Source: Oscillospiraceae bacterium
Lineage (GTDB): Bacteria; Bacillota; Clostridia; Oscillospirales; Acutalibacteraceae
NCBI GenBank assembly: GCA_015065725.1
Contig: SVPV01000009.1
Location: 1-64,000, forward strand
Length of the DNA: 64,000 bases
Reading direction: 5' to 3'
Below the pieces are notes generated by a model. That model was not told the DNA's origin, searched no databases, and saw only the letters and a program-made list of their open reading frames with translations. Shown in pieces: positions 9,132 through 26,064 of this stretch; position 1 is the stretch's first letter; each line of letters opens with the position of its first letter. The position numbers and the translations under genes are program-made.

Positions 9132-9172
9132 AAAAAATTCGCTTAAGGGATAAAACCTTAAGCGAATTTTTT
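9132..9172 (+). terminator. Rho-independent terminator of the MarR/ABC operon
   Basis: A near-perfect stem, AAAAAATTCGCTTAAGG (9132-9148) with CCTTAAGCGAATTTTT (9156-9172), has a 7-base loop and a run of T. The A-run on the other side makes it usable from both strands. Confidence 0.9.
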
Positions 9173-9197: not shown

Positions 9198-9228
9198 TAG
9201 TGTGACAGGTTCAAGTCCTGTCACACTA
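9198..9228 (+). other. tRNA-minihelix-like hairpin
   Basis: A perfect 12-base-pair stem (TAGTGTGACAGG 9198-9209 with CCTGTCACACTA 9217-9228) encloses the 7-base loop TTCAAGT. Seven acceptor-like pairs, five T-stem-like pairs and a loop fitting the T-loop consensus TTCRANT give the exact dimensions of a tRNA acceptor/T-arm minihelix. There is no D-arm, anticodon arm or CCA, so this is not a tRNA gene. Its last three bases are the stop codon of the leftward ccsA gene. No T-tract follows on either strand, so it is not a standard terminator. Confidence 0.6.
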
Positions 9229-9993
9229 GGAATACGCGTGTTGTGACGAGCCACCCATAATATTTACAAAGAACATTGTAATTATTACGCCGAAAAAACC
9301 TAAGACAACAAAAATTTTAGAATATTTTTGAAGTGCTTTATGGCGACGGAAGTGAAGATATATAGCTAACATAAGCCAAGTGACAAGCGACCAATTTTCT
9401 TTAGCATCAAACGACCAGAAATTGCCCCAAACCTCGTTAGCCCACATAGCACCAAATAGCATACCAGAGGTCATAAAAGGATATGCGATGCAAATAAGAG
9501 TATAAATTCCCGAATCTAAAAGATTGCTTTTCGATTTGTTAAATATGCTTTCAACAGTCAGTATAAAAGCAACGGCTACTAAAGTGTAACTAATCATATA
9601 AACTAAAACGTGAGGTACAAACCAAGGGGATTGAAGTGCTGGGGGGAAATGCCACTTTTCACCAATACCCATAAAACAAACACCTGTTAAGCAGACTGCA
9701 GGAAGCAAGCAAAAGTATTTGTCCATCCATCCGCCGTTATGTAAATACTTAACGTAAACAAACATAAGCGAAAAGGTTAGTGCAACAAAGGTTAAGACTT
9801 GATACATACTTACAAATGGTACATATCCGTTAATAATCCAGTTATTACCAACTAGAACTATGTTTCCAACAATCGCTAAAATCCAAGCAATCAGACCTAC
9901 TTTTTTGAACTTTTCAATCGACCTTAGAACTGTTGAAACACCGTAAAGAACAGCAGAAATAATTGCAACGTATAAAATTAATTTGGTATTCAT
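9226..9993 (-). CDS. ccsA: Cytochrome c maturation protein CcsA/ResC-like
   Basis: A 255-residue polytopic membrane protein with about seven hydrophobic segments. It carries the haem-handling WWD-type motif as WGNFWSFDAKENWSLVTW; the usual WxWD is WxFD here. Conserved histidines occur around VPHVLVYMIS, YLHFRRHK and the C-terminal SSQHAYS. Family knowledge: CcsA/ResC works with ResB/CcsB (System II) to carry haem across the membrane and attach it to CXXCH motifs of secreted apocytochromes. It overlaps the ResB-like gene by 4 bases (ATGA), so the two are translationally coupled. Targets with CXXCH lie upstream at 17041-25993. The gene ends inside the minihelix-like hairpin. Confidence 0.88.
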   Translation of the reverse strand: MNTKLILYVAIISAVLYGVSTVLRSIEKFKKVGLIAWILAIVGNIVLVGNNWIINGYVPFVSMYQVLTFVALTFSLMFVYVKYLHNGGWMDKYFCLLPAVCLTGVCFMGIGEKWHFPPALQSPWFVPHVLVYMISYTLVAVAFILTVESIFNKSKSNLLDSGIYTLICIAYPFMTSGMLFGAMWANEVWGNFWSFDAKENWSLVTWLMLAIYLHFRRHKALQKYSKIFVVLGFFGVIITMFFVNIMGGSSQHAYS

Positions 9994-10697
9994 ACTTTTT
10001 CACCTGCACCTTTCTTTTTAAATAGGCACATAACAAAGGTACCAATAATAAGCATCCAAATACCTGTTAGTGTAATATATTCACCTGGGTCATATTTAAG
10101 CATTAACTGAACGCTACTTTCGGTGATTTTATCATAATTCATAAGATAAATTTTCCATCCGTTTTGATGGTGGGGGTAATTTACAATAAGAGGTATTTCT
10201 TTAGGAGTACGTTCTCCGTCAGATAAAATCATTAAGGTGGCTTCATAGTATTTATCAGTACCCTCTACACCGTCTTCGGCGGTGTATTTTTCTACAACAA
10301 AATCTGACACACCGATACCGAAATCAAGCTTTAGCATATCATTTCCTTTACTGTCGGGCTCGGTACGCTTTATTTCGCTGTATATTGCTTTTTCGTTAAC
10401 GGGTACTGTAACCGTTACAACATCGCCCGAGATATAATATATAAAGCAACCCGTAAGTAATAGAACTATTCCTATGTGAAGAACATAAAAACCGCACTTA
10501 TAAAGGGTAAAAGACGGTTTCATCAAAAATATACATATAACCTGAATCAGCACATATGCCGCAAGAATAAACACTACCCAAACGCTTTTTAGCAGACTGT
10601 CCTCTGTACCGGAATTACCCTTTAGAGAATCAATTACAGTGAAAACAGTAAGCACGGTTGAAAGAATTAAAAATATTATGTATAAAGTTTTACGCAA
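9990..10697 (-). CDS. resB: ResB/CcsB-like cytochrome c biogenesis protein, short form
   Basis: A 235-residue protein with three N-terminal membrane segments, an extracytoplasmic beta-rich domain of about 110 residues, and a C-terminal membrane segment (ITLTGIWMLIIGTFVMCLF). A histidine in the third segment (VLHIGIV, residue 74) could handle haem. The terminal pattern KYDPGEYITLTG matches the end of ResB proteins. It is much shorter than Bacillus ResB and resembles compact ResB-like forms. The start is a TTG at 10697 with AAAGG upstream; no in-frame ATG or GTG fits better. With CcsA it would form a System II haem lyase. Confidence 0.78.
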   Translation of the reverse strand: MRKTLYIIFLILSTVLTVFTVIDSLKGNSGTEDSLLKSVWVVFILAAYVLIQVICIFLMKPSFTLYKCGFYVLHIGIVLLLTGCFIYYISGDVVTVTVPVNEKAIYSEIKRTEPDSKGNDMLKLDFGIGVSDFVVEKYTAEDGVEGTDKYYEATLMILSDGERTPKEIPLIVNYPHHQNGWKIYLMNYDKITESSVQLMLKYDPGEYITLTGIWMLIIGTFVMCLFKKKGAGEKV

Positions 10698-10727
10698 TAT
10701 ATCACAACCTTTCTAAAATGTAATTTT

Positions 10728-10756
10728 ATTATAAAATATATATAGCAGAAAAGCAA
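10728..10756 (-). promoter_or_regulatory. Promoter of the resB-ccsA pair
   Basis: On the minus strand TTGCTT (10756-10751) and TATAAT (10733-10728) are 17 bases apart. The -35 box lies inside the terminator stem of the upstream SGNH gene. Confidence 0.55.
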
Positions 10757-10778
10757 CACTAAAAAGTGTTGCTTTTCT
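10747..10778 (-). terminator. Hairpin ending the SGNH dockerin gene
   Basis: AGAAAAGCAACACT (10747-10760) pairs with AGTGTTGCTTTTCT (10765-10778) around a 4-base loop. It lies 37 bases past the stop of the SGNH gene. The trailing T-run is interrupted, so read-through into resB is possible. Confidence 0.65.
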
Positions 10779-10814
10779 AAAAGTTATGCTATTAAGTTTA
10801 ATTGATTAAAGAAA

Positions 10815-13800
10815 TTATTCATTAATAGACATAAGTGCGTAAATATCAAAGTTTACACAACGGCTATCGGTTGCATTTGTACCAACACCTCCAGCTTTAA
10901 TACGTATGGTGTGGGTAGTGTTTGCAAGTCCGCTTGCTAGGCATCTTGGGTTTTGTCCACCAGAGCCCATAGCTTTGAATTCTCCGCCATCAATAGAAAT
11001 CTGATAAAGGTAATCTGTCTCGTCATAAGGTACAAATGAGCTATACATATAAAGATTTGTACCTGTAAATGTGATAACAAGCTCATTATTAATATCACTT
11101 GTTGTAATATAATTATCAAGTTTTAATGATGTGTTGTTCACCTTTGTGCCATATTCCCAACCTGTAGAAGCGGATAAATCAAAGTCTTTTGTAGTAGTAA
11201 ATGTAGTATCCATCAAAAGATTACTGTTTTTAGCTGTCGGTAGAACTTTAGCGGCAGAAGCATCACCATTTGTTCTTGCGATATCAAATGCAGACCTTAG
11301 TAGATAGGTAACTGTATTTGCATATTCCTTGTGACCTACATCGGTTGGGTGAACGCTATCGGCGTAATAGGTCTGCCAATCTTCAGTATAAGTACCGTCA
11401 GCGTTTTTAGGTTCAGCGAGACCTTTGTCTATACGAAGCTTTCTGCCTACGTTAGCAGAAGGTATTCCGTAATATGTGGCTATCTCGTTTTGTGCGATTG
11501 ATTCGTCAAAATAATAATCGTCTGACGCTAAAACAGTATCGTTTGTAGTGTAAACCGAAACTATATCGCAATTGGGGTTAGATTCTAAAATTTTGCGGAT
11601 AAGCGTTTCGTAGTGGGTAGATACATCCTCGCCATATTGTGTACGCAGAAGCTTATCGTTAATTGCGGTTTCAATAAACACTAAATCGGGTGACTTTGGT
11701 AATACATAGTCATCGGCATAGAATACAGGTAAAAGTGTACCTACAGAGCCAATAGCTGTGTTAACTTCGGTAATTTCAGCATTGGGGAACTCTTTTCTCA
11801 GCCAAGAGGTTGTAAGGGGTCTCCAAGCAGTAGCACTTGGGTTAGAAGCAGCGGAACCTGCGGTGATAGAGCCTCCGATATATGCTACTGTTAATTTCTG
11901 TTCGGTCATTAACTTGTTATAAGTATTGGTAAGACCGTTTCTAAGGGTTACATTATCTGTATCATAATTCTTTTCTTGGTCAGAATTTATAAGTACTGCT
12001 GCAATTTTCAAATCTTTGCCTTCTTGAAGACCTGTAAATTTAATCTTAATGTTATGGGTTGTATCCTCAAGGCCTTTGACAACTGGTTGCGGGTGAGAGT
12101 TTAATGCGGCACATTTTACCCAATCACCGCCGTCGAGTGAGTACTCAAACGCAACGTCGACGAAACCTAAAACACCAAACGTGTGGCCGTTAAATGTGTA
12201 GGAGAATACGCTTTCGGGTGAAGTTGTGTAATAATAAGAATCATAGAGTACCCAGTTGCCCTCATAATAGGTAAAGCCTGTGCTGTCATCATCAAGCTCA
12301 AAGCTATCGGCGTGAAGATATGTAGTGTTCATTAATAGCTTATCATTCATTTGAGGTGCATCTGTAATAACTTCATCCTGTACCTTAGCCTCGTTAGATT
12401 TAAATGTAGCGTTTAATGCATTAATAATAGTATCGGCATAAGCTTTGTTACCGTTGGTGTTTGTATGACAAATGTCATTAAAATATGTGTACCAATCAGG
12501 ACTGTTAAGACCAGCAGTAAGGTTTTTATTCTTAAGTAAAGCGTAACCTATATTAATGGTTGGAATACCGTAGTTTTCAGCAACCTCCTCGTGAACTGCT
12601 GCCCATTCACATAAAGGTGTATCTACAGAGCAACCTGCGTCGGTTGTGTAAAGGAATGCAATATCACAGTTGGGGTTAGCTTTCTTAATCTTTTTAACGA
12701 TGGTTTCCATTTGGATGGAAATATCTTCGTTAGTATATTTGCTTCGTGCATATTTATCGTTCATTGCATATTCAATAAATACAATGTCAGGGTCTTTAGA
12801 CATAATATCCTTGTCAATACCGTACGCACCTGTTGCAGAAGCAGCACTAGGATTAGCAGCATTAATTCCTGTAACGCCGATATCGTATGTGTTTTCAAGC
12901 CAGGTTTCAGTTAAAACACGGAAAGATTTTTCTAAACCGTCGGGTGCCTGAATACCAATACCGTAGGTGATAGAACCACCAAGGAAACCGATTCTAATAT
13001 CTTTACCTGCTTTTATTTTCTTATAAGCATTCGTAAAGCCGTTACGAATTGTGAAAAATTCATTTTCAAAATCTTTATTATACATAGAAACTCCCAATAA
13101 AAGCTTACGAATTATAACTAAATCCTCCGAGCCTACAACACCGTTACCGTTAAGGTCAGCAGTAAAGGTATCTATAGTCGGGTTATCAATATCCTTCATA
13201 AGTGCAATAAAGTCAAGTACGTTAACTTCTTTATCACCTGTCATATCACTGTAGGTAGGACGTTCAATCGGTGCAGAAGCTGTGCCGTACGCTTCAATGC
13301 CCTTAATACGTGGATTGTAAGCGTAAACACTTCTTGTGGCTCCATCAGCTGCTAGACAAACGTCATCAAACACAATAAGCAAGCATCTAATATTAGTTGC
13401 TTCAACGTCTAGTGTCATTGTTTCGGCTGTCAAGCTACCGCCTGTACCAAGACAATTTTCAAATATAGTATCATCAAACTTTTGACCGCCGTAAACCGAG
13501 AATCTGTTAACTCTACGTCTATCGCCGGAAGCAGAAACATCCTGTGTAAGAACTATTTGTTCAATATCATAATTACCGTCAAGTCTATAACCTATAGCAG
13601 AACGGTAACTAAATTCAAATAGGTTGGTTTCAGCATTTTTAGTTGCATTTAAATAGAATTCATAGGAATCAGATTTATCAGTGTCAGCTATATTCTTATA
13701 AACATCATCTTTGGTAAGGTTAACTAATGAATTGTCAAGTGCTAATGTATCTATTACGCTGCCGTCACCGTCAAGGTCGTTGCTGTCAACCATAGTTACG

Positions 13801-16800
13801 CTAATAGCAGTAGAAGGTTCGAGTGTAGTGTATGTTAATTTTTCGGGTACAGCATACATAGCATATGAATTGGCAACTAAAGTGTCAATAGGTAATCTGT
13901 AAGTATCAGCAGATACGCCGCTATGTGTGAGAATGCTTGCAGGGGGAGGGGTAAGGCTACCGTAAGCTGCAATGCCGGTAATATGCGGGTCATAAGCATA
14001 AACGTTTACAGGCAGTTCTGCTATAAGACCTGTTGAGAGGCCGTCGCTATCCTTTTGGTTAGGATCATATTCAGCAACGTGGTCAAGAACTATTACTAAG
14101 TATCTAACCGCTACGGCACCTGTAAGATTTGTAGTCATATCGGCTTCAGCTATGTTACTGCCGCCTGTACCTACACAGTTTTCAAAAATAGAGTCATTTA
14201 GTACATTGCCTGCATATACAGAATAATTATAAACTGTTCGTCTATCAAATCCAGGGAACTGCGAAAGAACAAATCTGTCTAGGTCATATTCTGTACCTAA
14301 ATCGTAAACTATAGCAGTTCTCTTGTTGTGACGGTATACACCGTTGTCGTCTTTAGTGGCGTTTAAATAAATTTCGTATGTGTTAGTGTTAGTTAACGAT
14401 TCAAGATTATCAAAAGCTACATTTCTGTCATAGGCAGACGTATAGTATGTTTTCTCTGAGAAAATATTGTCATCATCAGTGTCTTTAGTATCACAAATAG
14501 AAAAATCAATATTCTTTTCGGTTAGATTTTTGTAAACTAATAGGTCTTTAAAGCTATCATAAGTGGCACCGGTATAGATATCAGTATCAATATCTACAGT
14601 GTATGTTTTAACGGTTGCATTAGCATTTGCAAGCACGTTTTCTTCGGGTGCAGCAACCTTTTTACCGTAGGCAGCAATTCCCTTAATTGTGGGGTTGTTA
14701 GCATACATTTCAACATTGTCGTTACCTACCTGTGCAACATGGTCCAAAACAACAACAACATATTTAACGGCAGTTGCATTCTCTAGTCTTGCAACGATAG
14801 TCTCATCCCTACCGTCACCTACGCCTTCGCCTACACAATTTTCCTCATCAAGTATTGAACTATCAAGTGTGTTGCCTGCATAAACAGAGTAATTGTAAAT
14901 AGCACGGTTTGCATTGGTTAAAGGTGAAAATTCTTGAGTGATTGAGAATTTAGTTAAATCATAATAACCGCCCAGTCTGTAAACAAAGGCTATACGGTTT
15001 GAGTTTTGTTTAATAGCACTGTTACCGTTAAGTTCAAGGCGTACTTGGAAATATTTTTCATTACCTTCAGATGCAAGGGTTTTAAGCACTTCATTCTTTG
15101 ACATATATGAAGTTTTAGTGCTGTCTTTAAATTGGTCAGTGGTAATTAGTTGTTCTGTAATACCGTCATCATTATAATCGCCATCATCTAAAGTGTAAAA
15201 TTGAGCAATATCATTGATTGCGTGTTTGTTGTGTCTAGCCTCATTTAAATATAAATATTCTGATTTTTCGGTGTATTCAGCACCCTGAACTAGCGGTGTA
15301 GCCATAGGTACAGATGCTAGATTAGCATATACATTATCATCGTTGAGTATATTAACTTCATCCGGTGCAAGCTTTCCGTAAGCTGCAAGACCTGTTATGT
15401 TTGCAAAATAAGAGTACATGTTGGTTGTTCCGTCTACACTATTAGTCATTTGGTCAAGAACAACTAGCAAATATCTTACATTTTTAGCACCTTCAAGGTC
15501 TACAACCATATCCTTGTCGATTGAGCTACCGCCAATGCCTACGCAGTTGTTAAATATTGTAGCATTAAGTGCATCACCTGCGTATACCGAAAATCTGTTA
15601 ATCATACGGTCGTCTGGGTCAACATTGTTTAGATTTTGGGTAAGTGTAAACGTATCAAGGTCATACTCGTCACCTAAATCATAACCAATAGCATAGCGAT
15701 ATTTAAAGCCAACGCCGGTGGTATAGCCTATCTCAAAACGGAAGGGCCTTAAATTTGTGGTGTCCTCAAGCATATCAAAAGCTGTTGCTTTGTCAAGATT
15801 TACATCAGCAAGGCTCTTTGTCTCATATATACTTCTGCCTTCTTCGGTTCCGTTAAAACCTGAAACATATTTAATTGAGCCTGAATAGGATGATAAATTA
15901 TCATAATTTAATTTTCCTATAACGGTTTCAAGTGAGTCGCCATTGATTATAGGGTCTGCAAGCTCGATTCTGTACTCACCTACAACAGCGTTTTCGTTTG
16001 CCAGTATATTTTCTACAGGTGCCTGAGCCTTTTCACCGTAGGCGGCAAAACCTTTTATGTAGCTATTGTTATAACCATCTTCTGCCCATATGGTATTCAT
16101 ACTTGGGGGCATAACAACATCAAGAACCACTACCAAATATTTTACAGCGTTAGCACCGTTTAGTGTAACTACCATTTCATCCTCGGTATTGCTGCCGCCT
16201 GTACCTACAGGGTTTTGCCAGATGGAACCGTTAAGCTCGTTGCCTGCATAAACAGTAAATTTTTGTATAGCACGGTTACAGCTACAAGAATCATTTATAC
16301 ATTGTGTTAATTTAAAGGTATCAACATTATAATAATCGCCAAGTCTGAAGACAAAGGCGGTACGATAATTTGGGGAATCGTTAGTATAAAAACGATAAAT
16401 GGAATCTGTGTTTTCATCAACCAAATCCCTCATAGCGTCTTCATCATACATTCCATCGTTGTATATGCGTACATATGTTGCGTCTTCGGTTTCGGTTTTA
16501 TGGGAATGTTTTTCAATAAAACCAACGCTACTAGCGGCGGGTTTTTGTGCGTAGTCTTGAAACAAAGACTCAGTGGGTGCCGCGTTGGCAAGCTCAAAAT
16601 GAGCATCCGCAATGTTGCCTGATTGGGCATCACCGTCCAACAACCTTTGTGCAAGGGGTGCCCTCGCAAAAGAAGCATAGGCTTTTTCATCTTCAAGAAT
16701 GTTGGTAGGAGTAGTTTCGGTAGTTGCCGAAGCTACTATAGCACCGCTAAACATTGTTAGCAGCATTACTACCGACATAGTTATTGCCGATAGCCTACGT

Positions 16801-16820
16801 AAAAAGTTTGTCTTTTTCAT
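10815..16820 (-). CDS. Secreted dockerin protein with five repeat modules and twin SGNH hydrolase domains
   Basis: A 2,001-residue extracellular protein. The start is the ATG at 16820 (MKKTNFLRR...), with AACCTCC on the plus strand giving GGAGG; an upstream in-frame ATG has no such site. The signal peptide covers about residues 1-33. Five copies of a ~200-residue module follow, each with a DLG-Y-LD strand, (F/Y)SVYAGN-LD-SIF-NCVG-GG, and an end like ITGIAAYG. A dockerin sits internally (about 1190-1250: TGDKEVNVLDF and DLNGNGVVGSEDL). Two SGNH esterase domains come next: Ser1283 in GGSIT, AMNDK, and D1449-x2-H1452; then Ser1651, AINDK and D1821-x2-H1824. Each is followed by a beta-rich domain. 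Likely deacetylates or de-esterifies a glycan. Confidence 0.85.
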   Translation of the reverse strand: MKKTNFLRRLSAITMSVVMLLTMFSGAIVASATTETTPTNILEDEKAYASFARAPLAQRLLDGDAQSGNIADAHFELANAAPTESLFQDYAQKPAASSVGFIEKHSHKTETEDATYVRIYNDGMYDEDAMRDLVDENTDSIYRFYTNDSPNYRTAFVFRLGDYYNVDTFKLTQCINDSCSCNRAIQKFTVYAGNELNGSIWQNPVGTGGSNTEDEMVVTLNGANAVKYLVVVLDVVMPPSMNTIWAEDGYNNSYIKGFAAYGEKAQAPVENILANENAVVGEYRIELADPIINGDSLETVIGKLNYDNLSSYSGSIKYVSGFNGTEEGRSIYETKSLADVNLDKATAFDMLEDTTNLRPFRFEIGYTTGVGFKYRYAIGYDLGDEYDLDTFTLTQNLNNVDPDDRMINRFSVYAGDALNATIFNNCVGIGGSSIDKDMVVDLEGAKNVRYLLVVLDQMTNSVDGTTNMYSYFANITGLAAYGKLAPDEVNILNDDNVYANLASVPMATPLVQGAEYTEKSEYLYLNEARHNKHAINDIAQFYTLDDGDYNDDGITEQLITTDQFKDSTKTSYMSKNEVLKTLASEGNEKYFQVRLELNGNSAIKQNSNRIAFVYRLGGYYDLTKFSITQEFSPLTNANRAIYNYSVYAGNTLDSSILDEENCVGEGVGDGRDETIVARLENATAVKYVVVVLDHVAQVGNDNVEMYANNPTIKGIAAYGKKVAAPEENVLANANATVKTYTVDIDTDIYTGATYDSFKDLLVYKNLTEKNIDFSICDTKDTDDDNIFSEKTYYTSAYDRNVAFDNLESLTNTNTYEIYLNATKDDNGVYRHNKRTAIVYDLGTEYDLDRFVLSQFPGFDRRTVYNYSVYAGNVLNDSIFENCVGTGGSNIAEADMTTNLTGAVAVRYLVIVLDHVAEYDPNQKDSDGLSTGLIAELPVNVYAYDPHITGIAAYGSLTPPPASILTHSGVSADTYRLPIDTLVANSYAMYAVPEKLTYTTLEPSTAISVTMVDSNDLDGDGSVIDTLALDNSLVNLTKDDVYKNIADTDKSDSYEFYLNATKNAETNLFEFSYRSAIGYRLDGNYDIEQIVLTQDVSASGDRRRVNRFSVYGGQKFDDTIFENCLGTGGSLTAETMTLDVEATNIRCLLIVFDDVCLAADGATRSVYAYNPRIKGIEAYGTASAPIERPTYSDMTGDKEVNVLDFIALMKDIDNPTIDTFTADLNGNGVVGSEDLVIIRKLLLGVSMYNKDFENEFFTIRNGFTNAYKKIKAGKDIRIGFLGGSITYGIGIQAPDGLEKSFRVLTETWLENTYDIGVTGINAANPSAASATGAYGIDKDIMSKDPDIVFIEYAMNDKYARSKYTNEDISIQMETIVKKIKKANPNCDIAFLYTTDAGCSVDTPLCEWAAVHEEVAENYGIPTINIGYALLKNKNLTAGLNSPDWYTYFNDICHTNTNGNKAYADTIINALNATFKSNEAKVQDEVITDAPQMNDKLLMNTTYLHADSFELDDDSTGFTYYEGNWVLYDSYYYTTSPESVFSYTFNGHTFGVLGFVDVAFEYSLDGGDWVKCAALNSHPQPVVKGLEDTTHNIKIKFTGLQEGKDLKIAAVLINSDQEKNYDTDNVTLRNGLTNTYNKLMTEQKLTVAYIGGSITAGSAASNPSATAWRPLTTSWLRKEFPNAEITEVNTAIGSVGTLLPVFYADDYVLPKSPDLVFIETAINDKLLRTQYGEDVSTHYETLIRKILESNPNCDIVSVYTTNDTVLASDDYYFDESIAQNEIATYYGIPSANVGRKLRIDKGLAEPKNADGTYTEDWQTYYADSVHPTDVGHKEYANTVTYLLRSAFDIARTNGDASAAKVLPTAKNSNLLMDTTFTTTKDFDLSASTGWEYGTKVNNTSLKLDNYITTSDINNELVITFTGTNLYMYSSFVPYDETDYLYQISIDGGEFKAMGSGGQNPRCLASGLANTTHTIRIKAGGVGTNATDSRCVNFDIYALMSINE

Positions 16821-16868
16821 AAAAAACCTCCATTTTTTTATTTGTATAATAAAATATTTGAAATTTAA

Positions 16869-16892
16869 TGTGTTATTGTACAAGATAACACA
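16869..16892. promoter_or_regulatory. Inverted repeat upstream of the SGNH gene
   Basis: TGTGTTAT (16869-16876) and ATAACACA (16885-16892) flank TGTACAAG. It lies 49-72 bases upstream of the SGNH start, where an operator would sit; a related TGTAACACA follows at 16905. No clear -10/-35 pair could be fixed. The rest of 16893-16980 is AT-rich with nothing recognised. Confidence 0.35.
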
Positions 16893-16980
16893 TATTTTAC
16901 ATATTGTAACACATTTTTCACAAAAAGTAAATAGAGCTTTTGATTATTTTTGTAAAAATACAGATAAAAAATATAAAATT

Positions 16981-17013
16981 AACCACCAAGCGAAAACTTT
17001 TCATTTGGTGGTT
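16981..17013 (-). terminator. Terminator of the dockerin-cytochrome gene
   Basis: On the minus strand, past the stop at 17041, AACCACCAA (17013-17005) pairs with TTGGTGGTT (16989-16981) and is followed by a T-rich tract. It separates the two cytochrome genes from the SGNH gene. Confidence 0.7.
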
Positions 17014-17040
17014 AATTGTGGACTAATTAAAATCCGTATA

Positions 17041-20000
17041 TTAAGCGGGTACGCCTAATAAAATTTTACGTAGAACAACTAAATCATTTACGTCAATTTC
17101 ACCGTCTTTGTTAAGGTCGGCAACCTCTACACTAAGGGTTAATTGACCGTCAATGGCCTTTGAAAGACTAATATAGTCGAGTATATTAACCTTGTCATCA
17201 CCTGTTGTATCTCCGTAAACAACATCGCTTGGAGCTTCAGTCTCTGTACCGTAGCAGGCAATGCCAGTAATTTTTGGATTATAGGCGTATTTTTCCACAC
17301 GTGTATTATTCTGCATTGCAACATGGTCAAATACAATTACTAGATATCTTGCTGCGGTTGTTTGATTTAGTGTAACCTCCATAGCAGTATCGGTAGCACT
17401 ACCGCCTCTGCCGATTTGGTTGTTAAAGATACTTAAATCTAAAGTGTTGCCCGCATATACCGAGAAACGATGAATTGCACGGTCATCACTGCCTTGGAAA
17501 TACTGGGTTAATACTAAAGAATCAAGCTTATAATACTTACCTAAGTCATAAACAATAGCTGCACGGTAGGTGAGAGGTGCATCGCCACCGGTGCTGTGTT
17601 GAATTTCGTAGTACTTATTGTTTGTACCCGAAGCTAATGTTTTAAGAATCTGGTCATCTTCTAACTTAAGGGTATATGCCGCAACAAGTGTACCTTCATC
17701 ATTTAATGTATAGAATCTGTTACTTCCGGTATCTTTGCCCGCTTCCATTGCGGTATAGCTATGTTCGCCAACCTCAGTAGCATGCTGTACAAGCGGGGTA
17801 GAGAGGGTTAGATTATAAAGGTCACCCGTAACATCAGCACCCGACAGAATGTTCGGCTGTTGCTTACCGTAAATTTTAATTCCCGAAAGCAATGGCTGAT
17901 ACGCATACACATTAATAAGACCAGGCGAAACAGAAACGTGGTCGAAAACTATAAGTACACAGCTATAATATTCATCCGAATTAAGCTCTGCAGTCAAGGT
18001 TTCTTGTGAATCACTTCCGCCTTTACCTATACAGTTACTAAATATAGTAGCGTCAAGCGTATCGCCCGCATATACAGAGAAATTATAAATTCTTCTGCTA
18101 TCCGAGAAACTGTGTTGTAAGACGATATCCTCTAGTTTATATTTTGCACCTAAATTATAGCCGATAGCTGCACGGTAGCTTAACGGTGCATCACCACCGC
18201 TATAGTTTTCAATCTTAACAAGTGTCTCATTACCTTCAGTTGCAAGTAGGTCAAATACTTGGTCGTTTGTATAGCGAAGATCTACTGAATTAACATAAGC
18301 ACCTGTACTGTCTTGTAACTTAAATATATGGTTTAAGCTTTTGTTTTCAGCTTCGGTTAAATTGTCATACACCAAATTATCAACAAATTCGCCCTCATGA
18401 GTTAAAGGTGTATCAAGAGCAATATTGTAAAGCTTACCTACAACATTTTCGTTAGAAACAATGTTTTTAACCTTACTTCCGTAAGCCGCAATGTTTGTTA
18501 TAATAGGCATATAACTATATTGGCTTGCGTTGCCGTTATCGTATGATGCGGTAACACTGTCAAATACAACTACAACATATCTCGAGTTTTCGGCATTATT
18601 AAGTGTAACGCTCATAGTTGATGTTGTATTAGTTGTAATACCGCCTCGGCCCACACAGTTTTTAAATATTGTAGCATCAAGGGTATTTCCTGTATATACT
18701 GAGAAATCGTGTACAATAATATAACTTGTGTTGGATAGTTGTGTTAGTTCAAGGGTATTAATATCATAATTTGTACCCAAATCAAAGGCAAGTGCCATAC
18801 GGCGTTGAAGCGTTAAGGTTGAATTGTTTGTTATCTTTAATTGAACGGCTTCGGTGTTTTCGGTATCGGTTAAAAGATTAATGATATCCTCATCGGTTTT
18901 GCCGAGTGTTGATGATTCAACCCAAGCCGAAGTGTCATCTAGTGAATAGAAAGCAAAATCAGCTTGCGTTGGGTCAACAGGGTTTATATTGTTATAAACA
19001 AGACTGTTTACATCAACAACTTTTCCTTGAGTTACATAATTATCTTCGGATAAATCAATACGGTACAAACCGCCCGTTACGGCATTGTGTGCGAGAATAT
19101 TACCCGACTCATCATCCTCAGGAACTTCAGGTTCAACAGGTATTTCGGGTGCTACAGGCGTACCGTCGTTATAAATCTCAAACTCGGTAATACCGCCCCA
19201 AGTAGCAGTTTCATCAAACTTAACAATGTTTGTAAACTTAACATAAGAAGTTTTAACCGTATCAAAGGTTGCAACCTGCTTATCCAAGCTCTCTTCAAAG
19301 GTGACATCCTGTGTACTGCCGTCAGAGAATTCTAAAGTAGCACTCTTGTAGAAGGTGTGACCTGATGAATTATTATTGCGTAGATATACACCGATTTCAC
19401 TGACACGAATTTCTTCACCGAAATTAATTTGCAACCAATGTTCACCCGTAGAGGCAGGTCCCCAAGACTGATACGGCCAACCGTTATGGCTTTCGTTTTT
19501 GGTTACACCGTCTATAGCATTACGCGGTGCAAAAGCCGGGGCATTAGCATGCCAATCGCTTGCAGTAGCGTGGGGGAATGCAGAGCTTGCGTCATCTAAA
19601 TCGTAAGGATTTAGTGCTATGTTTCTGCGTGAATTCCACTCAAGGTTGCTTACAATACGAGCAGTAATGGTATTAGATGTATTAGAAGCAAATGTAGGCT
19701 CAAAAGCAGCAGACATAGTATATGCTGATGGTACTTTATAAGTGAAAGTACCACTCGGAATATAAAGTAGTGCTTCGCCAACATTTTTGTTAAGTGTAAC
19801 ACCTAAATAATGTTCACCTTCGGGTAATGTGATAGTAATAGTATCACCCGCTGTATATGCTTTAGGAACGGAAAGTGTAGCACCAGAAACATCAATATCA
19901 GGATTATTATATACTGTACTGCCCGATTTATATTCCATAGTTATGTTGAAGTCGGGTTCAGCCTTTTCTTCGGTACCGTAAACGGAAATTTCGCTTATAC

Positions 20001-23000
20001 CCGCTAAAGCATTAGTTTCGTCTGCCTTAACTAATGATTTTAGTTTTACATAGCTTGTAGCAACAGGGGAGTCAAGAGTAACGGTTTGAACCTCGGCGGT
20101 CTTTTCAAAGGTTACTTCTTTTGTTGAACCGTCAGAGAATTCCAATACACCGCTTAACCAATAGGTGTCACCGCCGCTGAAATCTGCACGAAGCTTAATA
20201 TCGATTTCTTCAACCTTTACTTCACGTGCAAAGTCAACTGCCATCCAGTCCCCGCCTGAATTACTGCCGCCCCAAGAATGACTTGGATATGCACCGTAAT
20301 CCTTATTAGCTAATACACCGTCAATGGCGTTGCGTACGGCATTAGTATCAGAATTTTCATAACTGCCGTTTGCAGTAGCGTGCGGATATGCAGTCTTGTT
20401 ATTTGCAGTATCATACGGATTAACAGAAAGATTATGGCGTTCTCCTAGCTCATCGCTGTCAATTACGCGAGCAGTAATTGTATTAAATGTGTTTTGATAG
20501 AATGTAGGTGTATAAATATCCGATAGGGTACTATCAGGCACTGTGAATGTGTATGTACCGCTTGGAACATATAGAATAGACTCACCCATACGGCTATTAA
20601 GGGTTAGACCTAAATAATATTCGCCTTCGGGTAGTGTTACAGTTACTGTATCACCTGCAGCGTATTTTTTAGGTATTTCTAGACGCTTTGTAGTAGCAAA
20701 GTCATATACTTTGTCATATACGGTACTACCTGACGTATATGAAATACTAATGTCAGGTGCAGCATCCGAACCGCCTGCTGCTCTAGCTGCACGTGCTAGG
20801 TCATTGAGCTTTGTATAGAAATCACGTTTGTTTTGACTCTCATTAGCCCAACGGATTTGATTATCGTTCCAAAGATTATTTTCTAAATAATCACCGCAAC
20901 AGGGAACAGCTAAATCAATCCAAGCTTCAATAGTACGGATTTCCTTTTCGGTAAGTCTAACACCGCTATGGTTTTCACGTAGCATAGTGATGAGTTTACT
21001 CTTTGCCGAGCCTGCGTTATATGGCTTTAGCATTTCGGCATCGGACATAGTATTATTCCAATTTATATAATTTGAAGAAGCGTCGTAATTTCTAAATCCG
21101 CTTTCATTACCTACCAATACTAAGTAAGAAATCGGGAAGGCTTTACCTATATAATTACTGTTTTCATCAGGAGCTATACCGAAACGGTAGGAGCCGAGTG
21201 AAAATTCACTGCCCGAATATTCTTTAGCGGCTAGCTCAACATCTATGCTTGAACCCCAATTTCCAAGGTTATCGGCACGTACGGCTAACACGTTTTTGCC
21301 CACGCGTAAAAGCGACGTTGAACTAAGGTTTAAATCACGTACTTCATAAGCAGTAGTGTGTCCGCTTGTAGAGAAGACTAGTGTACCGTTTAAATATACC
21401 TGCGGACTTTCATCGTAGAAGGTATTAAGGAATAGCTGTTTTCCTGATAAATTATTGATATCCTCTTGTGTTAGAGTAAATTCACGGCGTAGCCAAATAT
21501 AGCTACCGTCGCCTTTCCAAGTAGTATTGCATACAGCTGCATTGTTACCGAACATAGCTTGACCTGTAGACCAAGCACTATCGTCAAAATCAAAGCTATA
21601 CCAGTCATCAGCAGGGGCAGTGTCTATAACATATTGCCATGTAGACTCTCTTGGAGAAATTATGGTTGATTCGGTAGAAACGTTAGTGCTGCTATCTGTT
21701 GTTGGAACCTTATCAACAGAAGATAAGCTTGAAACAGCGGCCTTGCTTTTAGCGGCACTTATATCGTTATGGCAGCTGACACAGCTTTCGTCTAAAATAG
21801 GCTGTACTTCTTCAAGATAGCTAAAGCCCTTTGATTCTGTATAGGGGTCATAATCCTCGTCCTGCCAAAAATCAGGTTGAAGTTCCCGAACACCGTTCTT
21901 CATAGCAATAGTGGTGGTTGATGAGGCGGGGGGTACGGTGTTTTTATCCTCGTGGCAACCTACACAGGAGAAGGTTTCACCCGGCATTAATGTTGACCAG
22001 CTACGCATGGTTTGTATCATACAACCGTTTTCGTCTAACACTTGGAAGAAAACAGGTGTTTCAGATGGAACTTTAAAGAGTGCTGAACCGTCTTCTTCAA
22101 TAGGTACAATACCAAGCACTCGTTTTACGTCCCACGAACCGTTACCTATTGAAACAGGACCAAATTGCTGACCGCCGTTTTTGGAGTCGATAGTGGTGTC
22201 GGATGTACCAACATTACCTGTAGTATAGGCACGGTAGTCAAGTGCTACAACACGTAAATATTTAGCAGCTCCGAAAGGAACGTCTTTTAATCCATCGCCC
22301 TCATAAATATTGCCTATATAATATGTACCTGTGTCGGAGCCGTAGTTTACCATGCTTGCACGCTCAAATAAAGTATGCTTCTTTATAGGTATAATCTGGC
22401 TTGCACCTATTGTTCCGCTACCGCCTACAAGCTCAACCTTGTCACCCTCGGTGTTCATAATATATATTCTGTAGTCGGCAGTGCGTCCCCAACCGTTGTT
22501 AGCCCAGTTGGTTATTTCGGGTTCGTATGAGCCGTTTAGATAACCTATGTCGGCACTCGAAACCAAAAAGGTATCTTCGGTTACAGAGTAGGGATATTTA
22601 TAAACAACACCCCACTGACCGTATATGTCGTGATATTCGTCGTCGGCACTTTGTATGTTAGGAAGTTCGTCCTCGTCGCCTTTAGCTACTATAAATTTAA
22701 GGGTATCGTTAACAGACTCGGTAGAGTTTCTGCCTTTACTTGTATCTATAATACAAAGCTTACCTGTTTGATAACAGTGGTGTCCCGAGGCAATAGAGAT
22801 ATATTTATCGGTAGTGCCTACAACTTCTCTTGAATGTAAGAGTGAGGGAGGGAAGTTAGTATTATTTCCGTAAACTTCGGTTTGGTTTGTTCCGTCGGGG
22901 AACATTTGGAAAATTGCCTGTGTATATACTTGTGTACGATCGTTATAATCCCAACGTGTATATAAAACACGTCCGTCAGATGTAACGGTTGGGTAGGTTG

Positions 23001-23712
23001 TATGTACCTGATCATAGCCTAAACGTACAATGTTTTCGCCGTTAGGGCCACAGGTATAAAGATTAGAAACAGGAGTATAAAAACAGTCAATAATCTGTGT
23101 CATTCTTGTAGAACTGAATACTATATCGCCGTTAGGCATATAGCGTGGCTCGGTATCGGCAACGCCTACACCAAAGGTTAATTGACGGTATTTGTTTGTA
23201 AGTAAATCATACTCATACAAATGGTAATCATCATCTTTATATATCTTGTTCCAAGAAAACAAGAATTTAGTTCCGTCTTCTGATACATCGGGGTCGCGAA
23301 TAACACCGTCGCCATCACTAATAAGTACGGTTTCAGTTTTTGTGACGGTATCGCCATCTCTGTTAAGCTCAACCAAAACAAGCTCAGAGCCAGGACGCCA
23401 AGGTGTTTCTTCATTGTTAGGAGAAGACTCTTTTTCAATAACGGTGTCAGATGGAGCTTCGGTATAAGCATAGTGCGAGCCGCCTAATTGGCGTTGGCGA
23501 ACTACAACAAAAGAGGTGTAGTTTTCCATTAGTGTGTCAAGCAACTCGGAATTCTCCATAGTTGTAACAGTAGGAGTTTTCGGTGTTACGGATATCCATT
23601 CGGATGAATCTTCCACTGTAGTAGCAGAAGCGTTAAACGGTATAATAGGTGCACTTAAAACACAACCAAGGAGAATAGCAACAGATAAAACAACGGAAAA
23701 TAGTTTTTTCAT
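17041..23712 (-). CDS. Hydrazine-synthase-alpha-like c-type cytochrome with C-terminal dockerin
   Basis: A 2,223-residue secreted protein (signal peptide about 1-30). Residues ~50-460 form a TolB-like propeller (RDPDVSEDGTKFLFSW, PRYMPNGDIVFSSTR). Two haem c sites follow: C583VGCH587 in SCVGCHEDKNTVPP and C644VSCH648 in EEVQPILDESCVSCHND. A jelly-roll domain (~690-820) is inserted before a C-terminal piece with TIEAWIDLAVPCCGDY (~925-945). This order and wording match large planctomycete proteins grouped with the HzsA family. Then come two linker/F5-8-type C (discoidin-like) pairs (~985-1245 and ~1255-1515), three ~200-residue modules shared with the SGNH protein (~1537-2155), and a dockerin (~2160-2223). 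GGAGG precedes the start. Enzymatic role unknown; hydrazine synthesis is not implied. Confidence 0.85.
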   Translation of the reverse strand: MKKLFSVVLSVAILLGCVLSAPIIPFNASATTVEDSSEWISVTPKTPTVTTMENSELLDTLMENYTSFVVVRQRQLGGSHYAYTEAPSDTVIEKESSPNNEETPWRPGSELVLVELNRDGDTVTKTETVLISDGDGVIRDPDVSEDGTKFLFSWNKIYKDDDYHLYEYDLLTNKYRQLTFGVGVADTEPRYMPNGDIVFSSTRMTQIIDCFYTPVSNLYTCGPNGENIVRLGYDQVHTTYPTVTSDGRVLYTRWDYNDRTQVYTQAIFQMFPDGTNQTEVYGNNTNFPPSLLHSREVVGTTDKYISIASGHHCYQTGKLCIIDTSKGRNSTESVNDTLKFIVAKGDEDELPNIQSADDEYHDIYGQWGVVYKYPYSVTEDTFLVSSADIGYLNGSYEPEITNWANNGWGRTADYRIYIMNTEGDKVELVGGSGTIGASQIIPIKKHTLFERASMVNYGSDTGTYYIGNIYEGDGLKDVPFGAAKYLRVVALDYRAYTTGNVGTSDTTIDSKNGGQQFGPVSIGNGSWDVKRVLGIVPIEEDGSALFKVPSETPVFFQVLDENGCMIQTMRSWSTLMPGETFSCVGCHEDKNTVPPASSTTTIAMKNGVRELQPDFWQDEDYDPYTESKGFSYLEEVQPILDESCVSCHNDISAAKSKAAVSSLSSVDKVPTTDSSTNVSTESTIISPRESTWQYVIDTAPADDWYSFDFDDSAWSTGQAMFGNNAAVCNTTWKGDGSYIWLRREFTLTQEDINNLSGKQLFLNTFYDESPQVYLNGTLVFSTSGHTTAYEVRDLNLSSTSLLRVGKNVLAVRADNLGNWGSSIDVELAAKEYSGSEFSLGSYRFGIAPDENSNYIGKAFPISYLVLVGNESGFRNYDASSNYINWNNTMSDAEMLKPYNAGSAKSKLITMLRENHSGVRLTEKEIRTIEAWIDLAVPCCGDYLENNLWNDNQIRWANESQNKRDFYTKLNDLARAARAAGGSDAAPDISISYTSGSTVYDKVYDFATTKRLEIPKKYAAGDTVTVTLPEGEYYLGLTLNSRMGESILYVPSGTYTFTVPDSTLSDIYTPTFYQNTFNTITARVIDSDELGERHNLSVNPYDTANNKTAYPHATANGSYENSDTNAVRNAIDGVLANKDYGAYPSHSWGGSNSGGDWMAVDFAREVKVEEIDIKLRADFSGGDTYWLSGVLEFSDGSTKEVTFEKTAEVQTVTLDSPVATSYVKLKSLVKADETNALAGISEISVYGTEEKAEPDFNITMEYKSGSTVYNNPDIDVSGATLSVPKAYTAGDTITITLPEGEHYLGVTLNKNVGEALLYIPSGTFTYKVPSAYTMSAAFEPTFASNTSNTITARIVSNLEWNSRRNIALNPYDLDDASSAFPHATASDWHANAPAFAPRNAIDGVTKNESHNGWPYQSWGPASTGEHWLQINFGEEIRVSEIGVYLRNNNSSGHTFYKSATLEFSDGSTQDVTFEESLDKQVATFDTVKTSYVKFTNIVKFDETATWGGITEFEIYNDGTPVAPEIPVEPEVPEDDESGNILAHNAVTGGLYRIDLSEDNYVTQGKVVDVNSLVYNNINPVDPTQADFAFYSLDDTSAWVESSTLGKTDEDIINLLTDTENTEAVQLKITNNSTLTLQRRMALAFDLGTNYDINTLELTQLSNTSYIIVHDFSVYTGNTLDATIFKNCVGRGGITTNTTSTMSVTLNNAENSRYVVVVFDSVTASYDNGNASQYSYMPIITNIAAYGSKVKNIVSNENVVGKLYNIALDTPLTHEGEFVDNLVYDNLTEAENKSLNHIFKLQDSTGAYVNSVDLRYTNDQVFDLLATEGNETLVKIENYSGGDAPLSYRAAIGYNLGAKYKLEDIVLQHSFSDSRRIYNFSVYAGDTLDATIFSNCIGKGGSDSQETLTAELNSDEYYSCVLIVFDHVSVSPGLINVYAYQPLLSGIKIYGKQQPNILSGADVTGDLYNLTLSTPLVQHATEVGEHSYTAMEAGKDTGSNRFYTLNDEGTLVAAYTLKLEDDQILKTLASGTNNKYYEIQHSTGGDAPLTYRAAIVYDLGKYYKLDSLVLTQYFQGSDDRAIHRFSVYAGNTLDLSIFNNQIGRGGSATDTAMEVTLNQTTAARYLVIVFDHVAMQNNTRVEKYAYNPKITGIACYGTETEAPSDVVYGDTTGDDKVNILDYISLSKAIDGQLTLSVEVADLNKDGEIDVNDLVVLRKILLGVPA

Positions 23713-23725
23713 AATGTAGTCCTCC

Positions 23726-25993
23726 TTAATATGTAATTACATAGGGCGAGGCTATCTGCTCACCCGAGGTGTTTTTGATTGTGATTGTCAATTTTACACC
23801 CTTTGTGTTTTCTGTCGGTATATCAAAACCGCTTCCAAGCTCAATAGCAGTGGCAGTGTTATATGCCAAATTGGAAACTGCGGTTTCTTTAGATTTTATT
23901 ACATTACCGTTAGCGTCGGTAAGAGTTGATATTACAGTTATATCGGTATCAGCATCTTTTTGCTGTCTGCGTAGCGTAAAGCCTATTATGTTTCCATCCG
24001 GAACTAATGCAGAAATTGTCGTTTTGTCGCCTTTGGTTACAAAGACCTGTTCAACGCCATACTGTTCGTCTTGGTTGCCTATAGACATTACAAAATTAGC
24101 AAGGTCTTTAATTTCACTGTCGGTAAGGTCGGGTGCAAAATAACGTACAACATCCTCCATGTTATTGTATCTGCCATCATGCATCCAAGCACCTGTACGC
24201 CAAACTTCAATAAGTGTTGGTGTATCAAAATCACGGTTTTCCCAATTGCCGTCATCGTTCTCAGTAGTACCTACATTGTGAAGCTTCATATCTGTATAAA
24301 GCGGGGCAGGGTGACAGCTAGCACAGCCTTGGCTTTCAAATAAAGCCTTACCACGTTCTGCCGATTCAGTAAGCGTACCGTCTTTATTTAAGTATGGGCT
24401 TTGCTCTGGCTGTAATGACATAAGATACTTATCTATACAGTCAAGCTGTGATTCTTCCATAACGTTAAATTGAATGTACTTCATACCGGCCCTTACTGCA
24501 ATCTCTGCATCGGCACGAATACCGGTCACCATAACAGGCGGTGTTCTGTGTGCATAGAGCATACTCTTTGCACTCTTGGGGTTTCCTAAACCATCGTTCA
24601 TATTGTCCCAATTAAGTCCGTCTGCTAAAGCATCGGGGTGACAGCTTAAACAGCTTTGCCATTTTTGATAGCAAAGATTAGCATCGCTAAACAAAATTTC
24701 ACCTTGGCGAACAGCATCGTTTTCGGGTTGCTCTGCTACCGTAACGGTTGCTGACTGCTTTTTGGTGCTGATATCAACAACGGCTATATCGGCAGTGAAA
24801 TATTGACCGACATATACTTTGCCATCCGCTATGGTTAAGGCACGGGCACCCTTACCATTTAATGAAATACGGGTGCGGCAGTCGTCAAGGAAGGGAAGAT
24901 AGTCCACAATTTTTTCTGTTGATTTTACAACGCCGCTACCATTTTTAACAGCGTTAATTTTAGCGTTCATCGAATTTATGTCTACAAGCATAATTTCGTC
25001 TGTACCTGAAAGAGAAACCGCAAGGGATTCACCGTCATCACTTACAGCAATACCCCAAGGGTTAGCAGCACCTAGCTCAACCTCGTCGAGCATAACTGCA
25101 AGTGCTGTATCATCGGCTGTATTTATTATAGAAAATCCGTTGGTGTTTATCCAACCGCGATCAAGCTGTGTTGTAGGATATGTATAACGTGCAATTATGT
25201 GAGATACATATACAGTACTACCGTCGGGCGAGGCGGTAATACCTTTAACGCCACCGCCACCGTTAACTAGCTCAATGCTTTTTATTTGTGTATCGGTTAG
25301 AGTATCAATAACAGCTACGTTTGAAGAAACGGTCTGTTCGTTAGAAGCATTTTCTGGCAAGTGGCAAGCAACATACACCTTGCCGTTTGCTAGTGCTAAA
25401 TCGATAGCCTCACGTCCGTCAATAGCAATTGTATTTGTTATGGAGTTTGCATTAAGGTCAACTACTGATACGGAATTATCAAAACGGTTTGCAACATAAC
25501 CCTTGTTGCCGCTTACCACCATAGCTGATGGTGTATGACCTACACTTAGGGTTTCATTAGCTTTGAGTGAGGTATCAAGTATAATAACTTTGCCGTCTGC
25601 ACCGCCTGTAAGTGCGTAAACAGTATTTTTGTTTACAAAAACACCGTTTACCTGTGCATCGGCTTGGTAGGTAGCAACAACCTCACCGTCTGTGGTTGAT
25701 TTATACACCTTCATACCTGTTTTGTCTGCCGAGTAAATAAATCCGTCACTCACACAAACATCGGTAATAGAGGTGTATTGCTCAGCGGGAATAACATCTT
25801 GTGCTACCGCGTTGTTTAGCAGTAGCATATTTTCCGATTCACCGCTTAACAGCTCTACCACATTGCTTAATAGCGGAACATTTGATACATTAATTTTATC
25901 AGTCGCCGCCAATACTACGGTTACGGTTAAAAAGAATACTATAGCTACGCAAACCGTAAGTATTATCTTCCACTTTCTACATAACTGTTTCAT
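23726..25993 (-). CDS. Di-haem MauG/CcpA-like cytochrome with N-terminal beta-propeller
   Basis: A 755-residue secreted or membrane-anchored protein. The start is the second in-frame ATG at 25993 (MKQLCRKW), because GGAGG ends 7 bases before it; the first ATG at 26005 abuts that ribosome site. A signal or anchor helix spans ~9-32. YVTN/NHL-type repeats form a propeller (~60-430; GNKGYVANRFDNSVSVVDL). Two haem sites are C448LSCH452 and C557ASCH561, followed by RDFDTPTLIEVWRTGAWMHD, the signature of cytochrome c peroxidase/MauG-type proteins. A ~110-residue beta domain ends the protein. It is the first gene of an operon; its stop abuts the ribosome site of the dockerin cytochrome 13 bases on. 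Peroxidase or electron-transfer function is inferred. Confidence 0.86.
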   Translation of the reverse strand: MKQLCRKWKIILTVCVAIVFFLTVTVVLAATDKINVSNVPLLSNVVELLSGESENMLLLNNAVAQDVIPAEQYTSITDVCVSDGFIYSADKTGMKVYKSTTDGEVVATYQADAQVNGVFVNKNTVYALTGGADGKVIILDTSLKANETLSVGHTPSAMVVSGNKGYVANRFDNSVSVVDLNANSITNTIAIDGREAIDLALANGKVYVACHLPENASNEQTVSSNVAVIDTLTDTQIKSIELVNGGGGVKGITASPDGSTVYVSHIIARYTYPTTQLDRGWINTNGFSIINTADDTALAVMLDEVELGAANPWGIAVSDDGESLAVSLSGTDEIMLVDINSMNAKINAVKNGSGVVKSTEKIVDYLPFLDDCRTRISLNGKGARALTIADGKVYVGQYFTADIAVVDISTKKQSATVTVAEQPENDAVRQGEILFSDANLCYQKWQSCLSCHPDALADGLNWDNMNDGLGNPKSAKSMLYAHRTPPVMVTGIRADAEIAVRAGMKYIQFNVMEESQLDCIDKYLMSLQPEQSPYLNKDGTLTESAERGKALFESQGCASCHPAPLYTDMKLHNVGTTENDDGNWENRDFDTPTLIEVWRTGAWMHDGRYNNMEDVVRYFAPDLTDSEIKDLANFVMSIGNQDEQYGVEQVFVTKGDKTTISALVPDGNIIGFTLRRQQKDADTDITVISTLTDANGNVIKSKETAVSNLAYNTATAIELGSGFDIPTENTKGVKLTITIKNTSGEQIASPYVITY

Positions 25994-26035
25994 AAAGACC
26001 TCCATATTAATTAAATGATTTAACTAATTAACCTA

Positions 26036-26064
26036 ATTATACAACTTTTGACGAGGTTTGTCAA
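26036..26064 (-). promoter_or_regulatory. Promoter of the two-cytochrome operon
   Basis: On the minus strand a consensus TTGACA (26064-26059) and TATAAT (26041-26036) are 17 bases apart, about 43 bases upstream of the start at 25993. This is a strong housekeeping-type promoter. Confidence 0.8.

Follow-up and report, generated by a model that had tools for sequence, protein, structure and literature searches.

What are two secreted c-type cytochromes, one of them carrying a dockerin, doing in a gut-type Clostridium? The locus that raises this question lies in a stretch of 64,000 nucleotides (hereafter the window) of contig SVPV01000009.1 of an Oscillospiraceae bacterium. Five consecutive open reading frames at 9226-26005 on the minus strand form an apparent operon, in the gene order P0005 (23726..26005), P0004 (17041..23712), P0003 (10815..16883), P0002 (9990..10697) and P0001 (9226..9993), all on that strand. 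P0005 is a homologue of the beta-gamma fusion of hydrazine synthase (HZS), P0004 is a dockerin cytochrome homologous to HZS alpha, P0003 is a secreted dockerin/GDSL protein, P0002 is a short ResB-like System II protein (PF05140, 2.3e-16) and P0001 is a CcsA haem-attachment protein of the CcsB type (PF01578, 4.7e-33). These frames and matches bear out the leftward run of five genes, ResB and CcsA included, that was described in the initial annotation. The P0005 and P0004 genes are 13 bases apart: alpha and its fused propeller/di-haem partner are encoded side by side. A sigma-70-like promoter (TTGACA-17-TATAAT, 12/12 consensus matches) lies at 26036..26064 on the minus strand, 30 bases upstream of the P0005 start, and a terminator-like hairpin with a 17-pair stem and a T-rich tail lies 3' of CcsA at 9132..9172 (minus strand); both are consensus matches only, from weak scans (74 promoter-like matches found versus 56.0 expected, and 12 terminator-like matches versus 12.0 expected). 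The flanks have an ordinary Clostridial housekeeping look (alaS, RadA-like, BipA, PPDK), and G+C content is even across the window.

P0005 is composed of an N-terminal helix (residues 10-34), a seven-bladed propeller (about 80-425), a di-haem gamma part and a C-terminal beta domain. Its CXXCH sites, gamma-I (CLSCH, residue 452; 24638..24652, minus strand) and gamma-II (CASCH, residue 561; 24311..24325, minus strand), are both invariant in 14/14 aligned rows. P0004 consists of a propeller, a middle domain, two CXXCH sites, an insert after the second of these, F5/8C modules, repeat modules and a C-terminal dockerin. Its HZS_alpha middle domain (PF18582, 21949..22272, minus strand; 1.5e-33) contains the alpha-I site (CVGCH, residue 583; 21952-21966, minus strand), whose C, G, C and H are invariant across 55/55 aligned alpha rows; alpha-II (CVSCH, residue 644) follows at 21769..21783 on the same strand. 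All four sites had been noted previously. At the DNA level the genome shows no enrichment of the CXXCH pattern (103 matches versus 178 for the reversed pattern); the case for the four sites rests on their position within HZS-alpha, CCP_MauG and cytochrome c regions. The pattern count cannot separate monohaem cytochromes either, so PF00034 was used instead to look for the other cytochromes whose presence the initial annotation had left to be checked: P0005 is the sole PF00034 protein in the genome, in a search that could miss cytochromes of other families.

In a PDB sequence search, HZS chains are the top matches for alpha and gamma, and in a fold comparison HZS is the top match for alpha and for the beta propeller; the fold-comparison rows for P0005 span the propeller alone, and gamma homology is by sequence only. 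By sequence, the beta propeller matches an archaeal S-layer YVTN propeller best (1l0q, 1.5e-31, versus 2.1e-28 for 5c2v_B). P0004 and P0005 are firmly placed as HZS-family alpha and beta-gamma subunits, distantly related to the anammox enzyme. These top matches rule out generic respiratory or peroxidase cytochromes. The earlier description of secreted c-type cytochromes stands, if widened to secreted or membrane-tethered, but it overlooked the HZS homology of both proteins.

The insert after alpha-II spans 106-492 residues up to an SYLxL motif in 13/14 alphas of the Clostridial clade described below; the motif was not found in the remaining row, which is incomplete. Among other frames the median distance is 42 (motif found in 48/81), exceeding 150 in three, that of genome G104 among them. 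In G086 the insert region matches a GH2 sugar-binding domain (34.6 bits versus a cut-off of 28); for P0004 only short fold matches to GH2 enzymes suggest such a domain. A module of the form NIL...YAGN...GxGGS, weakly F5/8C-like, is repeated in the N-terminal half of P0003, at about 1520-2150 of P0004 and in L119 and L120, and by eye is common to several dockerin proteins of this genome.

Residues that define HZS are missing from this pair (roles and numbering as given in the available text of PMC12607021 and PMC12758564). The position of alphaTyr591, an alpha-I ligand four residues past the CXXCH His, is Tyr in 0/55 rows, and Glu directly follows the alpha-I His in 51/55. GammaHis144 is replaced by V493 in P0005 and by V (5), I (5), A (2), F (1) or T (1) across 14 rows; it is never Trp, the residue of CCP/MauG at the equivalent position according to the available text of PMC12758564. 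No Cys is found in the stretch of P0005 that corresponds to gammaCys165, the third thioether. H915 of P0004, which is His in 52/55 rows, lies near the expected place of alphaHis772, the distal alpha-II ligand of HZS, as placed without a residue-level alignment. A motif of its own around gamma-I, TPPxMxTGIRxxAExAVRxG, is largely kept (T488, P490 and G495 in 14/14 rows, E501 in 13/14, H486 in 12/14). Since the tested HZS residues are absent and this motif is kept, the predicted gamma-I pocket is conserved, yet neither HZS-like nor peroxidase-like. A true hydrazine synthase is ruled out on the tested residues (alphaTyr591, gammaHis144, gammaCys165), and peroxide handling, one of the roles suggested initially, is weakened by V493 at the CCP/MauG tryptophan position. 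The complex is more likely a new carbohydrate-related redox enzyme than a hydrazine maker.

P0003 contains repeat modules, a central dockerin and two GDSL/SGNH esterase stretches (PF13472, 1e-27); judging by the signal peptide, an ATG 21 codons inside is likelier as its start than the listed TTG. It is part of the cassette only at the window locus. The ResB protein is short (235 aa), and P0001 scores 139.4 against the CcsB model TIGR03144, under the cut-off of 187.6. ResB and CcsA lie in the same gene run as c-type substrates, consistent with putative System II haem attachment, and the earlier view that these cytochromes have their own System II pair is upheld; the pair seems dedicated to the HZS-like complex. 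Ferrochelatase was not found in the genome of the window (97.57% complete), so the host probably imports haem and is likely a haem scavenger.

PF18582 is scarce among relatives. With the window's own genome counted in each set, it was detected in 3/149 relatives, 7/394 genomes of the order and 3/398 of the phylum, and in none of the 20 same-genus genomes listed. The other two genomes of the phylum set, G539 and G716, are distant, and the beta-gamma-like partner in G539 has one CXXCH. The seven genomes of the order are spread over four families (f1, f10, f15, f21). CcsA above cut-off is found in 9/394 genomes of the order: all seven with PF18582, plus G376 and G463. It is thus present in 7/7 genomes with HZS-alpha versus 2/387 without (Fisher p 1.3e-13, kinship ignored). 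These counts agree with the earlier remark that c-type cytochromes are rare in such bacteria. In G376 a six-CXXCH protein adjoins a CcsA-type protein (L140:8841-11907), and in G463 (L142) genes that look like Rnf by eye are followed by a four-CXXCH protein, a ResB-like frame and CcsA.

A named scan for PF18582 matched at least 590 stretches, of which 582 were confirmed, and at least 80 loci were kept. Among the matches listed, eight loci are titled Clostridia; most of the rest come from Planctomycetota, Verrucomicrobiota and their allies, and Bacteroidota and a few further groups make up the remainder. ResB, CcsA, beta-gamma and alpha are together on one strand in 6/8 of the Clostridia loci among the matches listed, and the two others (L038 and L044) have no ResB/CcsA within their short DNA. 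The same genes are linked in G086, G150, G180, G459, G225 and G104 (in the last, alpha runs off the contig), and in G400 they are split over two contigs. The order ResB-CcsA-betagamma-alpha is found at ten loci (G086, G150, G180, G459, L039-L043 and L045), with ResB-CcsA-alpha-betagamma in G225, betagamma-ResB-CcsA-alpha in G104, betagamma-alpha-SGNH-ResB-CcsA in the window, and alpha-betagamma, two genes and a ResB/CcsA fusion in Bacteroides L070 and L072. Gene order varies, linkage is kept, and the conserved unit is ResB-CcsA-betagamma-alpha. Both the cassette and its co-occurrence with CcsA are firm.

Profile searches of 88 loci, many of them contig-limited, gave alpha with beta-gamma and CcsA in 13, alpha with beta-gamma in 6, alpha with CcsA in 1 and alpha alone in 68. 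As these 68 have no recognised beta-gamma or CcsA in reach, alpha may act alone elsewhere. Beta-gamma is present in 5/5 Bacteroidota loci among the matches listed and the ResB/CcsA fusion in two; L071 and L074 meet contig ends, and L085 has no CcsA within 6.9 kb after beta-gamma. At L085:8419-10662 a stop splits the HZS-alpha frame between the propeller/middle part and the haem part. At L031:2-3445 (G225) beta-gamma has an extra fused N-terminal Mala_s_1-like propeller, which the Bacteroidota operon encodes as a gene of its own. Named Bacteroides genomes with the family are B. faecis MAJ27 and B. faecalis KCTC 15687.

A tree of alpha was built by a quick method from 94 sequences, Bacteroidota contributing four rows; four of 98 frames were dropped (the second frame of L075, the first frame of L087, the first piece of L085, and L010). 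Of 15 Clostridial alphas (seven from the window's order and eight titled only Clostridia), 14 form one clade apart from PVC sequences (SH-aLRT 100). The exception, the alpha of G225 from the window's order, sits on a long branch and pairs with a Verrucomicrobia sequence (support 99), and at least two entries into the order are likely from this topology. The window and L038 alphas are sisters (100) with 77% identity over 542 columns, and G086 is next (94).

Both giant proteins described as dockerin-bearing in the initial annotation have type I dockerins above the curated cut-off of 22.9 bits: at the C terminus of P0004 (17056..17217, minus strand; 31.4 bits) and inside P0003 (13095..13253, minus strand; 25.1 bits, 2e-5). 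The genome has 12 dockerin matches, and cohesins (PF00963) in four separate frames, three above cut-off and one below. No multi-cohesin scaffoldin was found by PF00963, a search that could miss divergent cohesins: there is one cohesin per protein. One carrier, an LRR-Big-cohesin-dockerin protein outside the operon (48355..51990, plus strand; cohesin at 51379-51693), is a possible partner for the operon dockerins. It is one of two adjoining LRR proteins at 48355-53045 (plus strand), the other of which has a dockerin. By eye, L005 of this genome encodes an N-terminal membrane helix, a linker and a single cohesin, and L004 a secreted cohesin protein whose Cys-rich repeats resemble those of the cohesin protein of L038. 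At L038 the cohesin gene (1e-14) directly follows alpha, 15 bases on. No Pfam glycoside hydrolase was found on 11/12 dockerin proteins scanned, and one has a sub-threshold beta-helix. A classical cellulosome is ruled out, there being no multi-cohesin protein among the PF00963 matches and no glycoside hydrolase on the dockerin proteins scanned. The dockerins and genomic cohesins agree with the surface complex proposed initially; the term "cellulosome-like" is too strong, given that 11/12 of those proteins lack a Pfam glycoside hydrolase.

The C-terminal dockerin on alpha scores 31.4 bits in the window, 44.8 in L038 and 20.7 in G086 (just under the cut-off of 22.9). Among the other 11 Clostridial clade alphas, ten are without a dockerin by eye and that of G400 is cut; the alpha of L043 has by eye a sortase-like tail in place of the dockerin. 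Only one sub-lineage has added the dockerin, which is seen in 3/13 clade alphas with a visible C terminus and looks like one of several anchors that hold alpha outside the cell.

Some of the loci have a carbohydrate-like gene context, but sugar genes are not universal. G459, G180 and G400 have GFO/IDH/MocA and xylose-isomerase-like genes nearby, none reaching an NCBIfam equivalog cut-off. G225 has GH78, GH116 and LacI on the opposite strand, G086 a dockerin GH78, L044 a GH43, and L038 PIG-L and NagB-like genes. The two GDSL stretches of P0003 belong to this context too. A MalK-like ATPase is the sole match among three flanking proteins scanned in G150, and the one flanking protein of L043 that was Pfam-scanned is LacI; these flank scans leave out L039-L042 and L045. 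At Bacteroides L072, a run of alpha, beta-gamma, propeller, chorismatase/RidA-like and ResB/CcsA genes comes after SGL, two DUF6905, a xylulokinase-type kinase, Zn-ADH and DeoC. An SGL-DUF6905-FGGY-ADH-DeoC set lies beside alpha in 4/5 Bacteroidota loci among the matches listed; L058 and L105 have a set of the same type that lacks DeoC, and L080 has FGGY-ADH-DeoC. The sugar set with DUF6905 (twice), or part of it, at L072:3943-18334, L058, L105 and L080 spans Bacteroidota and Verrucomicrobiota. The FGGY/ADH set was found in 7 of 89 loci searched; the GFO query matched nine.

We tentatively favour, at a little under an even chance, an operon encoding an HZS-family tetrahaem complex with an extracellular role in the use of sugars or glycans. 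Carbohydrate chemistry would be the best, if unproven, reading. From the observed homology, domains, gene content and co-occurrence, we infer the following assembly, haem loading, cohesin binding and substrate. P0005 would be tethered to the membrane via its N-terminal helix and would pair with P0004 as in HZS. ResB/CcsA would attach four haems outside the membrane, the haem probably being acquired from the gut. Through their dockerins, P0004 and the esterase P0003 may both plug into surface cohesins, next to a substrate that the F5/8C and sugar-binding-type modules may bind. The complex could then oxidise or reduce a carbohydrate or a group attached to it, with electrons moving through gamma-II/alpha-II to a partner and the product entering sugar catabolism. 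The HZS matches, the linkage and co-occurrence with CcsA, the signs of surface display and the sugar genes at some loci support this reading; against it count the patchy spread of those genes, the many loci with alpha alone, L085 without CcsA, the opposite strand of the G225 glycoside hydrolase genes, the restriction of P0003 to the window cassette and the dockerin proteins scanned, none of which has a glycoside hydrolase.

Nitrogen or peroxide chemistry would draw on the same architecture: NO, hydroxylamine or H2O2 might be reduced at the gamma-I haem, in the manner of HZS or cytochrome c peroxidase, for protection or to form an N-N compound. The alpha-beta-gamma arrangement is common to HZS and the gamma part is CCP/MauG-like. 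Such chemistry is improbable, however, in view of the residues at the alphaTyr591 and gammaHis144 positions, the missing Cys in P0005, and the absence of nitrogen-metabolism genes from the 20 proteins scanned in the flanks of the window locus. The loss of key HZS residues, together with the many binding modules, would instead suit a haem-bearing adhesin whose propeller, F5/8C, sugar-binding-type and dockerin modules bind glycans, the haems being structural or relics. We find this decidedly improbable: haem sites are kept without exception at alpha-I and at both gamma sites, the gamma-I motif is kept across phyla, and CcsA co-occurs with alpha.

In a host that is presumably fermentative, haem proteins at the surface could also serve as an outlet or inlet for electrons to minerals, humics or partner cells, and the four-CXXCH protein beside Rnf-looking genes in G463, a CcsA-bearing genome of the same order, points the same way. 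This is highly doubtful: the locus has only four CXXCH sites and lacks a multihaem conduit, the genome shows no second PF00034 cytochrome, neither Rnf nor quinone genes turned up among the 20 flanking proteins scanned, and the HZS fold points to catalysis. Contamination, or a mis-binned planctomycete piece, has a vanishingly small chance of being correct. Described HZS-like pairs are mainly from Planctomycetota, and the scarcity of PF18582 among relatives would fit, but the housekeeping flanks, the even G+C and the separate clade of 14 Clostridial alphas led us to reject it.

Carbohydrate use outside the cell, if extended to the whole family, would make this a new class of haem complex, extracellular and active on carbohydrates: an HZS-family alpha-beta-gamma whose substrates, in gut and PVC bacteria alike, are glycans or sugars. 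A single order of gut Clostridia would have acquired it, along with a dedicated System II pair, on at least two occasions, one lineage would have placed it on a dockerin-cohesin scaffold, and HZS itself would be an offshoot of a sugar-related redox family. We regard this generalisation as rather unlikely. The cassette bears on the origin and ancestral role of HZS; because it is a compact, recurring set of four genes that is also present in named Bacteroides genomes, the ancestral activity is directly testable in a tractable host.

We know of no earlier haem protein on a dockerin. In the open-licence literature we found neither Clostridial HZS-like proteins nor dockerin cytochromes, nor any cellulosome with c-type cytochromes, as had been supposed initially; dockerins in ANME archaea are described in PMC9012536, the available text of which does not name a dockerin cytochrome. 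What appears to be new is an HZS-superfamily variant, found in a gut-type Clostridium, that is dockerin-linked, apparently surface-displayed and equipped with a dedicated pair of haem-attachment proteins.

Its nearest described relatives are the co-localised HZS-like alpha/beta-gamma pairs of Planctomycetota, Desulfobacterota and others (Hagglund et al. 2025, PMC12758564), which in the available text lack HZS active-site residues and experimentally confirmed function, with Bacteroidota and Bacillus mentioned for beta-gamma; the main text does not contain "clostridi", "bacillota", "dockerin" or "resb". The window shares with them the paired alpha and fused beta-gamma genes and the absence of active-site residues. 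It differs in having V where clades I-III, as described in that text, have Trp at the gammaHis144 position, and in the adjacency of its pair, which no FG-GAP gene interrupts. HZS of anammox bacteria (PDB 5c2v) has the same alpha propeller, alpha-I middle domain and alpha-II domain, beta propeller and di-haem gamma; beta and gamma are fused in Scalindua and beta-gamma precedes alpha in anammox bacteria, both as at the window (PMC12758564, available text). The window pair lacks alphaTyr591, gammaHis144 and gammaCys165, and its proteins have F5/8C, sugar-binding-type and dockerin modules in a Clostridium host. Di-haem CCP/MauG proteins resemble the gamma part in their two CXXCH sites, but not in the V at the Trp position, the fusion to an HZS-beta-like propeller or the adjoining alpha gene. 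As in cellulosomes and non-cellulosomal dockerin-cohesin systems, there are type I dockerins, with cohesin carriers in the genome and after the L038 alpha; unlike in cellulosomes, 11/12 dockerin proteins of this genome are without a glycoside hydrolase and each cohesin protein found has one cohesin. Finally, as in System II maturation generally, ResB and CcsA are both present and linked to c-type proteins, but here ResB is short and the pair seemingly serves the HZS-like complex.
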